DNA of 64,000 nucleotides, taken from assembly GCF_949820605.1 (NCBI RefSeq), contig NZ_CATKVU010000001.1, positions 1 through 64,000 of the forward strand, written 5' to 3'. This DNA is from Segatella copri (GTDB lineage Bacteria; Bacteroidota; Bacteroidia; Bacteroidales; Bacteroidaceae). Below, piece after piece: positions 28,718 through 36,642 of this stretch (the first letter of the stretch is position 1; each line of letters opens with the position of its first letter). The position numbers and the translations under genes were made by a program. A model generated the notes under the pieces. That model was not told the DNA's origin. It searched no databases and saw only the letters and a list, made by a program, of their open reading frames with translations.

Positions 28718-29440
28718 ATGGGAACATCGCAATCTTTAAACTTAAAGACCACACCTAATTGGTCATCAGCTAAGAAAGCTATGACTACAATAGTGAGGCA
28801 TCGGAATGAGGTTACGCAACCTATGGTTCGTAATTTCTTGAGGCAATTGTCTAGAGCCATCATCACTGACTCCCATGGAAGTTATGGTCGTGCAGGAGGA
28901 AGAGTAGCTCGTAATTTTATAGGTGCTATTTCTTCTGTCAAGAATGGTAGCTTGCAAAGTTATATTGCTCAACTCGAACCTGATGCGAATTATGCTCAGC
29001 TTACCGTTCGAGATGTTATAGTACAATTAGCTAAACATCTATCCAATCCTAATGCTGAACATGACCATTCTACATTGGATGAGATAGCTGCTCGTGCAGC
29101 ATTTGAAAACCTATTGCAACAAATCTTCTCGGAAGTAGAGACTGCAGAGGATATTGAACAAATTCTGAAAGATGCCACAGAGGATCAAATAGAAGGTTGG
29201 ATGATAGAATTTCAGCTTAATTATATCATGGAACTGAATGGAGTCTTGTTCGATTCTTATATCTTTTCCAAAGATGCTGAACCTGATCAAGTCTGTCGAG
29301 AAATAAGGGATTTTGTTCGTGCTGCTATTAATGAAGCATGTTTGGATAATATGCATCATGTCAACTTCGAAACAGAAGAGGGTAAGCAATTCATTGAAAC
29401 GTTAACTCAACAAATTTTGGAAATATGGAGTCAAGAATAA
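28718..29440 (+). CDS. qatB: QatB: Qat system protein
   Basis: 240 residues, 6 bp after qatA and overlapping qatC by 16 bp. QatB proteins have no assigned biochemical activity; this one is named from position and general character. The N-terminal MGTSQSLNLKTTPNWSSAKKAMTTIV, with a Gly/Arg-rich YGRAGGRVARNFIGAISSVKNGSLQSYI segment, precedes a helical C-terminus rich in acidic residues (IFSEVETAEDIEQILKDATEDQIEGWMIEFQ). The N-terminal GTS/NWSSAKK start is what I expect for QatB. No membrane segment. Confidence 0.85.
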   Translation: MGTSQSLNLKTTPNWSSAKKAMTTIVRHRNEVTQPMVRNFLRQLSRAIITDSHGSYGRAGGRVARNFIGAISSVKNGSLQSYIAQLEPDANYAQLTVRDVIVQLAKHLSNPNAEHDHSTLDEIAARAAFENLLQQIFSEVETAEDIEQILKDATEDQIEGWMIEFQLNYIMELNGVLFDSYIFSKDAEPDQVCREIRDFVRAAINEACLDNMHHVNFETEEGKQFIETLTQQILEIWSQE

Positions 29441-31590: not shown

Positions 31591-31725
31591 GTAAGGTAGG
31601 CTGAAATAAAAATATTACCTTTGCATCCGAATTCAAAATTTTAGAGAATGGAAACAAGGGAATATTTTGAGAAAGTGATGCAGGACTTTAATTAGAACCG
31701 CAAAGGTCGAAACATAATTAAATGA
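31591..31725 (+). pseudogene. 5' end of a truncated IS gene with promoter element
   Basis: TACCTTTG (31616-31623) precedes an ATG at 31648 encoding METREYFEKVMQDFN, an in-frame stop at 31693, then NRKGRNIIK and another stop. Ignoring the stop, the stretch METREYFEKVMQDFN(x)NRKGRN looks like the N-terminus of an IS-encoded small DNA-binding protein common in Bacteroidales (from memory, IS66-type Orf1). GTAAGG at 31591 would be the element tip. The remainder is missing; the ATPase gene begins at 31730. The surviving promoter may drive it. Confidence 0.5.
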
Positions 31726-31729
31726 ATTA

Positions 31730-33097
31730 ATGATGAAAGGAAAGTATCGTGTTAATTACATTGCCTTGAGAAGGTATATCCATGATCTTAGGCGGAAAAA
31801 GAAGAAGCGACTTGTTCGTAGAAAAAGGCATGAGCAATATCTGGCTTTATTACAATCTCTAGATTACGAAACATCGATTGACAATATTTTAAAATTAAAG
31901 TTGTCAGAAAGTACTAAATACTTATTTTCGAATGTAGAAAGTCCTCTCAGTTTCGAAAAGATAATGAGTGTTGTTGATAATTACGAGGGAGTTGTTGAGA
32001 TTCCCAATGTCTTTTCTTTAATTGAAAACCCAAAAGAAAGTTTTGAGGCTATCAAAATGTTAACAGCATCCTTGTTGTTTCAAAAACATAGTGAAGTTGT
32101 GATTGATTATTCACAATGTAAGCGCTTTACTTTAGAAGCTCAAGTGCTTTTGGATTTAGTTTTAAAAGATATTTTACGCATTTATGATATTTGCGAGCGT
32201 ATTCCCAAGAATCGTTCTTTTACAAAGGCTATAACTGATAAGTCTAAGAAAGGGAGCAATGTGAGAACTATGCTTTTTTCTGTAGGATCACAAGCTATTC
32301 ATGCTAATAGACACATTGAATATCCTAATATTATACCTTATCATTTGTGTATGCATAGAGCAGTCAATAATTCTATAGAGCAAATTGAACAAAAAGAATT
32401 AGATACGACATCTTTATCAGATTATGTCGAAAAATGTCTTGCTAGGATGGGGCGGAAACTAGATGATGATAGTATGGACAATCTTTGTACTGTAATAGGT
32501 GAAATCTTGATAAATGCAGAGGAGCACTCTAGTACTCATTGTCGATATTCTATAGGATATTTTGAACAGAAAGTTATTGAAGGCAGAGAAGTTGGAGTTT
32601 TTCAACTTGTAATTTTGAATATGGGTAGATCTATATATGAAAAGTTTCATGATAATGATTGCCCTAATCAAGATGTTGTTGAAAAGATGAAAACTTTATC
32701 TAGTAGATATACACGGAGAAGATTTTGGCAAACAAACAAGTTTGACGAAGAGACACTTTGGACATTATACTCATTGCAAGATGGAGTGACTTCTGTGTCA
32801 CCGCAACGATATTCTCAACGAGGAAATGGATCTTTAAGATTCATTGAAAGTTTTTTTAATCTTAAAAATGTAGATGGGGAAGATAAAGTTTCCAAAATGG
32901 TTTTACAATCAGGCCATTCCAATATCGTTTTTGATGGAACCTATGGTACAGCCGAAAGAATGGTTAATAACCATAAATATCGAGTTATGACTTTTAATGA
33001 GAGTAATGATATTGAGGAAGCGCCTGATACGAAATTTGTAAGGCATACAGACTTTTATTTTCCAGGTACTTTTATATATGCTAATATAATTTTATAG
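31730..33097 (+). CDS. GHKL (histidine-kinase-type) ATPase with STAS-like segment
   Basis: 455 residues. The very basic N-terminus (RRYIHDLRRKKKKRLVRRKRH) is followed by a STAS-like strand-helix (EVVIDYSQCKRFTLEAQVLLDLVLKDIL, about 122-150). An HATPase_c core follows: N box GEILINAEEHSS (257-268), G1-like VILNMGRSIYE (294-303), G2-like QRGNGSLRFIESFF (363-376), and a closing HTDFYFPGTFIYANIIL. There is no dimerisation His, so it is not a standard sensor kinase but resembles anti-sigma-type or MORC-like ATPases. It is the first gene of a three-gene operon 3' of the Qat genes. No named defence system was matched. Confidence 0.75.
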   Translation: MMKGKYRVNYIALRRYIHDLRRKKKKRLVRRKRHEQYLALLQSLDYETSIDNILKLKLSESTKYLFSNVESPLSFEKIMSVVDNYEGVVEIPNVFSLIENPKESFEAIKMLTASLLFQKHSEVVIDYSQCKRFTLEAQVLLDLVLKDILRIYDICERIPKNRSFTKAITDKSKKGSNVRTMLFSVGSQAIHANRHIEYPNIIPYHLCMHRAVNNSIEQIEQKELDTTSLSDYVEKCLARMGRKLDDDSMDNLCTVIGEILINAEEHSSTHCRYSIGYFEQKVIEGREVGVFQLVILNMGRSIYEKFHDNDCPNQDVVEKMKTLSSRYTRRRFWQTNKFDEETLWTLYSLQDGVTSVSPQRYSQRGNGSLRFIESFFNLKNVDGEDKVSKMVLQSGHSNIVFDGTYGTAERMVNNHKYRVMTFNESNDIEEAPDTKFVRHTDFYFPGTFIYANIIL

Positions 33098-33102
33098 ATG
33101 TT

Positions 33103-33444
33103 ATGGCAGATGCAGTTATTAATTTAGAGGAATTCAGAGTGAAGAAAGGTAATGCTATATCTAAGGTCTTTACAGGTAGAGATCGAGGAGAAATGGTTCG
33201 TAAGAAATCTAAAATAGATGAATTAGAGCGTGAGTTTGATAAAGTGACAATAATAATTCCCAAAGATATTCGATCTATAAACCCTTCTTTTTTTGAAGAG
33301 ATGTTGAAAAATGTTGTACTTAAAATAGGGCGAGAAAAATTCTTAGAAAAATTTTCATTTCAGAGTCTAGGAAGTTATAATTATAGTAAACCTTTAAATG
33401 AGGCAATAGATCGTATATTAAGGCCTGATACCGCAATAGGATAA
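33103..33444 (+). CDS. STAS-like (DUF4325-type) protein
   Basis: 113 residues, 5 bp after the ATPase gene. VTIIIPKDIRSINPSFFEEMLKNVVLKIGREKFLEKFSFQ (about 48-88) has the strand-loop-helix pattern of the STAS-like DUF4325 family, where a small hydroxy-residue-containing loop (here S-I-N-P-S-F) precedes the helix. In such pairs the STAS protein is a likely binding partner of the HATPase, analogous to anti-sigma factor antagonists. The N-terminus is charged (VINLEEFRVKKGNAISKVFTGRDRGEMVRKKSK). The next gene begins 21 bp downstream. Confidence 0.7.
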   Translation: MADAVINLEEFRVKKGNAISKVFTGRDRGEMVRKKSKIDELEREFDKVTIIIPKDIRSINPSFFEEMLKNVVLKIGREKFLEKFSFQSLGSYNYSKPLNEAIDRILRPDTAIG

Positions 33445-33465
33445 AATGATGAAGCCAATATTATT

Positions 33466-34062
33466 ATGGTAAGTAACGCTATATTTCTATTTATTTCGCA
33501 GATTCCTGATTCTTGGGGAATTCCTTTTATTGGGATTTTATATAATAGTCAATCGACAAATTGGCTAGATGTAGTATATAAAGTCGCAATGATAATAATA
33601 GGAGTTGTAAACGCAAGTTTCGCATTTTATATTTTTTATTATAGAAATCGTGTAGAGAAAAAGAAGGAGTTAGAAAATCTCAGAAGGGATATTTTAAATA
33701 GCTTTGTTCTTAAATATAAACTCCAGACATTTTATGACTATTTTACGGAACTAGTGACCAATAGCGAAAAATTATTAGATAGACAGGCATCTTTAGATGA
33801 TGTTAAAATCATATTGGATGATAAAAATCAGGATGTTTTTTCTAGTGTACGTAAAAACTTTACAGAATATCTAGATGCTGTTGATGCTAGTCTGTATAAA
33901 AAAATATTGAAAATTTGTGATGATTTACAAGGTGAAATTTCTGAAAATTTGTTTGATGAGAATGTAGATTTAAGGGATAAATGTGTATATAAAGAATACA
34001 TTTTGAGTCCAATCCAAACATCACAAAAAGAGATTTTGGTAGCTTTGTTTAGTTATAAGTGA
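33466..34062 (+). CDS. Single-pass membrane protein, third gene of the ATPase/STAS operon
   Basis: 198 residues. The N-terminus is hydrophobic (MVSNAIFLFISQIPDSWGIPFIGILY). A clear transmembrane segment covers about residues 38-58 (VAMIIIGVVNASFAFYIFYYRNRVEKKKELENLRR), whose basic end suggests a cytosolic C-terminus. The rest (about 65-198) is a charged helical domain with no recognised catalytic motif. As the only membrane protein of the operon it could be the effector or anchor. Gene order ATPase, STAS, membrane protein next to Qat suggests a defence module; this is inference. Confidence 0.7.
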   Translation: MVSNAIFLFISQIPDSWGIPFIGILYNSQSTNWLDVVYKVAMIIIGVVNASFAFYIFYYRNRVEKKKELENLRRDILNSFVLKYKLQTFYDYFTELVTNSEKLLDRQASLDDVKIILDDKNQDVFSSVRKNFTEYLDAVDASLYKKILKICDDLQGEISENLFDENVDLRDKCVYKEYILSPIQTSQKEILVALFSYK

Positions 34063-35922: not shown

Positions 35923-36642
35923 ATGAATCACGATAAAGAGGCAATTAAAACTATTTCTGAGAGTGTAGGTAAGCAACTTCTAAATTTAAATCCCATTACC
36001 GGCTTTATTGTTTCTTACGTTGAAACAGTAAAAGAGAGACAAGCGGAAAGAAAATTGACTCGATGCTTGGAAATGTTAGAAAGTTTGCAAAAAGACTTGG
36101 ATGAATCACAAAAGAGCATTAATGAGAAATATGTGAAGAATGATAATTTTCTTGATATATTTGAGCAAACTGTAAATCAAGTCGCAAATGAACGAAATGA
36201 TGACAAAAGGATGTATTTCAAGAATATTCTATTGAATAGCATCTTTAAAGATACAGTAGATTATGATATTACAGAGAAATACATGAATATTTTGTCACGG
36301 TTGGAAAAAGATGATTTAACCATTTTAAAAGTTCTATATCAGCCAGAGCTGGCTAATAAAGCAAAAGGATATGTCTTGAAGAATCCGAATCTGGAAAATG
36401 GTAAACGTTCTGAAGTGTATCGAATAGAGAAAAATTATGATTTAGTATGGACTCTCAAAGATTTACTTCAAATCAATGAAGAACAGATAAAGGATTCATT
36501 ATATGCTTTGACTAGAGAGCGATTAGTTAATGATAATACTCTAAGTTTTTCTCTTAAAACTGATGGAAATCCTGTTGATGTTCTTAAAAATCATTTAACA
36601 ACAAAAGGCAAATCCTTTATTAGTTATCTTCTAAAGGATTAG
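35923..36642 (+). CDS. Hypothetical protein inserted between manC and rfbF
   Basis: 239 residues, MNHDKEAIKTISESVGKQLLNLNPITGFIVSYVETVKERQAERKLTRCLEMLESLQKDLDES... It appears mostly helical with a coiled-coil stretch (about 40-75) and a C-terminal winged-helix-like region (LKDLLQINEEQIKDSLYALTRERLVNDNTLSFSL). No catalytic motif. AT-rich and unlike its sugar-gene neighbours, it resembles small cytosolic accessory proteins found alone in Bacteroidales islands. It is unlikely to be a biosynthetic enzyme. Confidence 0.65.
   Translation: MNHDKEAIKTISESVGKQLLNLNPITGFIVSYVETVKERQAERKLTRCLEMLESLQKDLDESQKSINEKYVKNDNFLDIFEQTVNQVANERNDDKRMYFKNILLNSIFKDTVDYDITEKYMNILSRLEKDDLTILKVLYQPELANKAKGYVLKNPNLENGKRSEVYRIEKNYDLVWTLKDLLQINEEQIKDSLYALTRERLVNDNTLSFSLKTDGNPVDVLKNHLTTKGKSFISYLLKD

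Follow-up and report, generated by a model that had tools for sequence, protein, structure and literature searches.

Organization of the locus

The window, that is, the whole stretch of 64,000 nucleotides of Segatella copri DNA that was analysed, carries on its forward strand three consecutive genes, hereafter the trio. Gene 1 (31730..33097, +; defined from the open reading frame, models and alignments) codes for a 455-residue STAS and GHKL protein that resembles protein kinases of the SpoIIAB/VapK kind, gene 2 (33103..33444, +; open reading frame, Pfam and alignments) for a 113-residue DUF4325 STAS-like protein, and gene 3 (33466..34062, +; open reading frame and model) for a 198-residue single-pass membrane protein, the candidate effector. 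The three reading frames are those placed there by an earlier sequence-only reading of this DNA, and their sizes, the DUF4325/STAS-like character of the second product and the single transmembrane helix (TMH) of the third were all confirmed. That reading let the unit begin at position 31616, which is the start of a promoter-like box, TACCTTTGC (31616..31624, +), the first coding start being at 31730. The box resembles the -7 element of Bacteroidetes promoters and has no exact TTTG partner at -33; it is not among the 16 sites in the window that match the two-box Bacteroidetes promoter pattern. With 1.75 such matches expected, this excess points to a Bacteroidota origin of the window. Just ahead of gene 1 we also noticed a relic open reading frame of 15 codons (31648-31695, +), which may resemble the accessory reading frames of IS66 elements.

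On the same strand, qatD immediately precedes the trio, with a gap of 195 bp between them. QatA, QatC and QatD were recognized by PADLOC models, and QatC alone exceeded the NCBIfam cut-off. The protein at the QatB position (28718-29440, +) was matched by neither PADLOC nor NCBIfam, its Pfam matches were at chance level, and it is probably a divergent QatB. Further downstream, a protein flanked by apparent sugar-nucleotide genes (35923-36642, +) gave a sub-threshold match to Abi_alpha (23.2 bits, cut-off 29), and may be a second abortive-infection gene in the window.

Features of the three proteins

Gene 1 is composed of a basic N-terminal helix (residues 2-43), a STAS-like domain (about 82-193) and a GHKL domain (200-455), in which we could identify an N-box (E258, N262 and H266), a G1 box (N297-x-G299) and a G2 box (R364-G365-x-G367). 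The three N-box residues, including the Glu and Asn typical of GHKL ATPases (E258 and N262), are unchanged in all 56 aligned gene 1 proteins. Position 297, the site of the G1-box aspartate, is occupied by asparagine in 52 of them and by serine in the other four, so that the aspartate of the DxGxG motif is absent, a replacement that might signal weak or altered nucleotide binding. The AF2 model combines a STAS domain with a SpoIIAB-like GHKL kinase, and its comparison with VIA-align gave a clear match to SpoIIAB; Foldseek retrieved SpoIIAB and STAS chains only at E-values of 0.2 and above, HATPase_c_2 of Pfam stayed below threshold (12.8 bits, cut-off 27.4), no significant match was obtained among PDB sequences, and the protein is not named by Pfam, PADLOC or NCBIfam. 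The assignment as a GHKL ATPase with a STAS-like segment holds, with the correction that the protein has a STAS domain of its own and looks like a protein kinase of the SpoIIAB/VapK type, for which kinase activity is predicted. The N-terminal region carries a net charge of +2 to +21 across 44 loci, and its basic character is weak in four relatives from viral contigs (L134, L139, L140 and L143; 0 to +5). The basic N-terminal helix found on most of these kinases is a new feature. The idea that the N-terminal STAS domain acts as a pseudo-substrate was abandoned, since positions 137 and 138 vary.

In gene 2, DUF4325 was matched by Pfam above its cut-off (31.6 bits, cut-off 23; residues 38-92), and a match at an E-value of 0.1 or better was obtained for 25 of 26 relatives. 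Pfam contains no HTH or wHTH match to this 113-residue protein, and its comparison with PDB sequences gave nothing significant, the best being an anti-sigma antagonist (1sbo, E 0.59). The N-terminus has a conserved TGRDRG motif, and two residues, G29 and S62, are invariant in the 56 aligned proteins. Ser62, which immediately precedes a conserved phenylalanine in the profile alignments, is the candidate phosphoacceptor.

The model of gene 3 (pLDDT 84.3) is all-helical, with one TMH at about residues 33-57 and a helix bundle at about 79-198 that is assigned to the cytoplasm. Basic residues follow the TMH, within which position 49 is a conserved polar position (N in 30, T in 10, S in 4 and A in 1 of 45 proteins). 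The topology is probably N-out/C-in, as read from these residues, and the signal-peptide-like starts seen by eye ahead of the TMH in three distant relatives (L135, L138 and L142) fit this orientation. Structural comparison with PDB and viral structures produced generic helix-bundle matches and no known toxin fold, PDB sequences gave nothing significant, and Pfam matches were at chance level, the protein being unnamed by Pfam, PADLOC and NCBIfam. No PIN match was observed in Pfam for the window protein or in PDB sequences, nor among the Pfam families listed (25 of 32) for 41 relatives.

Conservation and distribution

All three genes are present, in the same order, at 57 of 58 distinct loci, the window included, and the remaining locus is a broken copy; as the loci were located through gene 1, this figure is conditional on its presence. 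A search with gene 1 retrieved 35 loci on genome contigs and four on viral contigs, with the complete ordered trio at 38 of these 39 (L035 is broken). Seven plasmid records matched, five of which were examined and all five carry the trio, the other two being Pantoea records with the same match coordinates; in one of the plasmids (L041) gene 1 spans the origin of the record and is visible only in part. A distant trio (L047) came from a sample of Bacteroidota genomes. A second scan of viral contigs gave 15 loci, three already known and 12 new, and the trio is present in all 12, identified by the open reading frame script in 11 and from the reading frames in the other (L144); gene 1 is short in L134. 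Moreover, the pairwise distances of the three proteins are strongly correlated over 44 loci, i.e. the proteins have diverged together. The trio is a real, widespread and strictly conserved unit.

Trio loci were observed in Bacteroidota, in gammaproteobacterial plasmids and in viral contigs. By record title, the genomes are mostly of Bacteroidota, with one of Ignavibacteriota and one metagenome-assembled genome of Alphaproteobacteria. For the locus titled Alphaproteobacteria (L012, JASGCT010000006.1) title and placement are in conflict, as its phylum sample consists of the same genomes as that for Phocaeicola. In the protein database, matches at the level of single proteins are also named in Bacillota (e.g., Paenibacillus, Priestia, Bacillus and Clostridium) and in Leptospira. 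The frequency is low: three of 395 Bacteroidota genomes, two of them already known, and two of 200 genomes of the genus of L001, one being the genome already known and the other apparently the contig of L003, since both are 4,078 bases long. The phage collection contained no gene 1 relative, and E. coli genomes had nothing that matched the trio of Pantoea at the DNA level.

The trio is cargo of a 6.8-kb Providencia plasmid (L041), where the seven genes listed in the record include, beside it, only genes named for mobilisation, replication, DNA-binding and GTPase functions. In Pantoea it sits between two tyrosine recombinases, and in two viral contigs (L037 and L039) it adjoins lysis genes. It is, therefore, a stand-alone mobile module: its position directly 3' of Qat in the window is as first described, and the trio is nevertheless independent of Qat, having a Qat-free plasmid copy and other neighbours elsewhere.

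Association with defence genes

Several loci have defence genes next to the trio. It is preceded by hsdS and followed by hsdR in L008, an hsdS is near it in L011 and L002, and an hsdR that is 60.8% identical to that of L008 is near it in L007. A pAgo gene lies 45 bp upstream in L034, and DruE (Druantia-like), the PADLOC candidate PDC-S05 and a DNA-methyltransferase-like gene are found nearby in L023, L016 and L036, respectively. An established defence neighbour could be named at six of the 35 genome loci, which is a lower bound, as the gene-by-gene attribution covered only some of the flanks. Among ten neighbours tested singly, three (L001, L026 and L030) gave no match. In the plasmid copies the trio stands apart from other defence genes.

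We also compared flanks with controls in bulk. The 143 flanking open reading frames of at least 180 residues, from 20 matched genomes, included, among the families listed (25 of 117 and 25 of 29), type I restriction-modification (R-M) proteins (restriction enzyme, methyltransferase and specificity subunits, two proteins each), a type II methyltransferase, mad2, mad3, DruE and HamB. The matched control reading frames (171 of 172, a single one of 4,326 residues having been omitted for its size) had mad3, DpdF, MzaA, PDC-S26, PDC-S48, RtcR, WYL, DEDDh and IetA among their matches. This comparison, which is not a formal test, is suggestive of an association with defence. The earlier placement of the trio in a defence island is supported by the type I R-M, pAgo, Druantia-like and Qat genes beside it at several loci; that trio loci are found mainly in such islands is not established, the count being at least six of 35. 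PADLOC-DB 2.0.0 (2023) does not recognize the trio itself, its best matches being at chance level (AbiEi with gene 3, E 0.017; with gene 2, E 0.031).

Relation to VapKSC

The closest parallel that we identified is VapKSC, a toxin-antitoxin and anti-phage system reported in June 2026 (Chambers et al., EMBO J 2026; PDB 9Z7O; PMC13373217). Among the matches listed in our search of the open-access literature, this article alone deals with a pair of GHKL and STAS proteins in immunity, and the trio is the subject of none. As far as its available text describes, both CapK/CapS and VapKSC use a STAS substrate with a conserved serine, the CapK kinase is activated by single-stranded DNA, and in VapKSC the PIN RNase is freed upon phosphorylation of the serine, as indicated by phosphomimic variants; VapKSC protects about 2-log against phage Bas42, and 103 of 289 vapKSC operons have a PADLOC gene at a distance of no more than 10 kb (PMC13373217). 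Single-stranded DNA is contacted by an aromatic residue, F54 in VapK and W68 in CapK, and position 48 of VapS is always Ser or Thr. The words 'transmembrane' and 'DUF4325' are absent from the main text and, according to its methods, vapK neighbourhoods were searched for vapC genes (PMC13373217), so that a class with a membrane-type third gene may have been passed over.

In a survey of DUF4325 among 296 Bacteroidota genomes, 45 had a match, and 30 cases with a short reading frame were taken, excluding the known trio of L002. The third open reading frame has a PIN-type motif, as defined by a regular expression, in 13 of the 30, is of a short membrane type in three and is neither in 14. In one of these loci (L102) the S and C proteins match the solved Escherichia VapS and VapC of PDB 9z7o (E 7.7e-38 and 1.4e-43, respectively), which makes it a true VapKSC and the anchor of the following comparison set. 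The kinases of the 13 PIN-motif loci, together with that of L103, whose third gene is missing at the end of the contig, were taken as a VapK-type set (n = 14). Gene 1 aligns with this set over 261 columns that cover both the STAS and the GHKL domains (hhalign probability 97.0, E 1.2e-10); the N-boxes coincide, and Asn297 faces the G1 aspartate, Asp180, which is present in 14/14 VapK-type kinases. Gene 1 is, on the strength of this profile alignment, homologous to the kinases of VapKSC loci. The alignment of gene 2 with VapS profiles is non-significant (probability 0.8, E 0.067) and puts Ser62 one residue after Ser48 of VapS. By its kinase, the trio is a relative of VapKSC with a different third component.

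Some surveyed loci differ from both. Three of them (L113, L118 and L123) form a second, divergent class of kinase/STAS/membrane-type operons, with kinases of 320-354 residues that have the canonical G1 aspartate and, in two of three, a Lys/Arg-rich N-terminus (net charge +16, +13 and +4), and with STAS proteins that share an F-L-[ED]-E motif; the hydropathy of the third protein of L113 is borderline (1.65). Profiles of this class matched gene 1 (probability 84, E 7.5e-6) and gene 2 (probability 56, E 1.1e-4), and gave no match to gene 3 (probability 0.3). In two other loci (L125 and L126) a kinase and DUF4325 pair is followed, after 61 bp, by a 147-residue protein that appears RadC-like by eye.

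Proposed mechanism and alternatives

The conservation of the trio, the folds, the homology between gene 1 and VapK and the invariant motifs are computed results, and the switch mechanism is their best-supported reading. We propose, with a probability of about 0.58, that the trio is a VapKSC-related kinase-antitoxin-effector module, whose released membrane effector damages the inner membrane and arrests or kills the infected cell. In the unstressed cell, gene 3 would be kept in check at its cytoplasmic bundle by dephosphorylated gene 2 protein. Stress, from either infection or DNA damage, would activate gene 1, which would phosphorylate gene 2, most likely at Ser62; the gene 3 protein thus freed could self-associate through its TMH and damage the inner membrane, and the infected cell would be arrested or killed. 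Gene 3 is the candidate effector, a role in defence is likely, and the trio may represent a defence system that has not been described before. The earlier proposal of an ATPase/STAS switch coupled to a membrane protein is in line with the folds and with the conserved trio.

Gene 3 could instead be a sensor or membrane anchor, in which case an input from membrane stress would retain both kinase and STAS protein at the membrane, with another protein as the output. The cytoplasmic helix bundle is suited for protein binding, the basic N-terminal helix of gene 1 could reach the membrane surface and the structural comparisons of gene 3 revealed no toxin fold; nevertheless, we consider this unlikely, as the third position is that of the toxin in VapKSC, as described in the available text (PMC13373217), 13 of the 30 DUF4325 loci have a PIN-motif reading frame there, and the genes of the Providencia plasmid offer no obvious other output. 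The occurrence of the trio on small plasmids, beside recombinases and in viral contigs would also be expected of an addiction (toxin-antitoxin) module, in which the same switch would stabilise mobile elements without any selected anti-phage role. That explanation seems unlikely to us, given that the trio is also present on chromosomal contigs, at some of them within R-M loci or next to pAgo, and that in VapKSC itself addiction and defence are hard to tell apart.

The SpoIIAB/RsbW fold of gene 1 and its STAS partner would suit a housekeeping partner switch of the RsbW/RsbV kind as well, tuning an envelope or sigma-factor response; the patchy distribution, the mobility of the module and a Pfam scan of five neighbours in the window, none of which is a sigma factor, make this improbable. 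Finally, the position of the trio directly after qatD, on the same strand, could indicate an accessory component of Qat, an explanation to which we give hardly any credence, since the gap of 195 bp has a promoter-like box of its own, no Qat gene is listed beside the trio on the Providencia plasmid or in a 13-kb stretch of L040, and the defence neighbours are different at other loci.

Beyond the kinase-antitoxin-effector module, we may speculate that VapKSC-like kinase-STAS modules serve as a general immune chassis with exchangeable effectors, and that the trio belongs to a membrane-effector branch which has exchanged the adenine-contacting aspartate for Asn or Ser and senses infection through a nucleotide other than ATP (e.g., a guanine nucleotide or a phage-altered pool), a proposition that we regard as unlikely. 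If the trio is a kinase-antitoxin-effector module as proposed above, VapKSC would belong to a modular class of such systems, whose membrane branch extends across Bacteroidota and other bacteria. The change from Asp to Asn/Ser raises the question of nucleotide use by GHKL kinases.

Comparison with known systems

A GHKL domain in phage defence is also found in VcSduA, a Shedu protein with a GHKL ATPase domain. Unlike the trio, this system consists of one protein, which contains a Shedu nuclease domain, and the term 'STAS' does not appear in the main text of the article (PMC12137116). The trio differs from SpoIIAB/SpoIIAA and RsbW/RsbV in having a kinase fused to a STAS domain and a membrane protein as partner. 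With CapK/CapS, which are tied to immune operons, it shares the switch made of a GHKL kinase and a STAS substrate; however, an HTH is present in CapK and a C-terminal wHTH in CapS, as far as described (PMC13373217), whereas gene 2 has no wHTH match.

The likeness to VapKSC is more extensive: a three-gene operon, a homologous STAS-GHKL gene 1, a small STAS gene 2 with an invariant serine, a candidate effector in third position and proximity to defence genes at some of the loci. In contrast to VapKSC, in which the third gene codes for a PIN RNase, that of the trio codes for a helical protein with one TMH, gene 1 differs from the VapK-type kinases in its mostly basic N-terminal extension and in the Asn/Ser in place of the G1 aspartate, and the serine of gene 2 is offset by one from Ser48 of VapS in a non-significant alignment. 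The suggestion that this set of genes is without parallel among named systems thus has to be withdrawn for the kinase-STAS half of the switch, which is already known from VapKSC and CapKS, as presented in the available text (PMC13373217); the membrane third component, the basic N-terminal helix of gene 1 and the replacement of the G1 aspartate by Asn/Ser are new.
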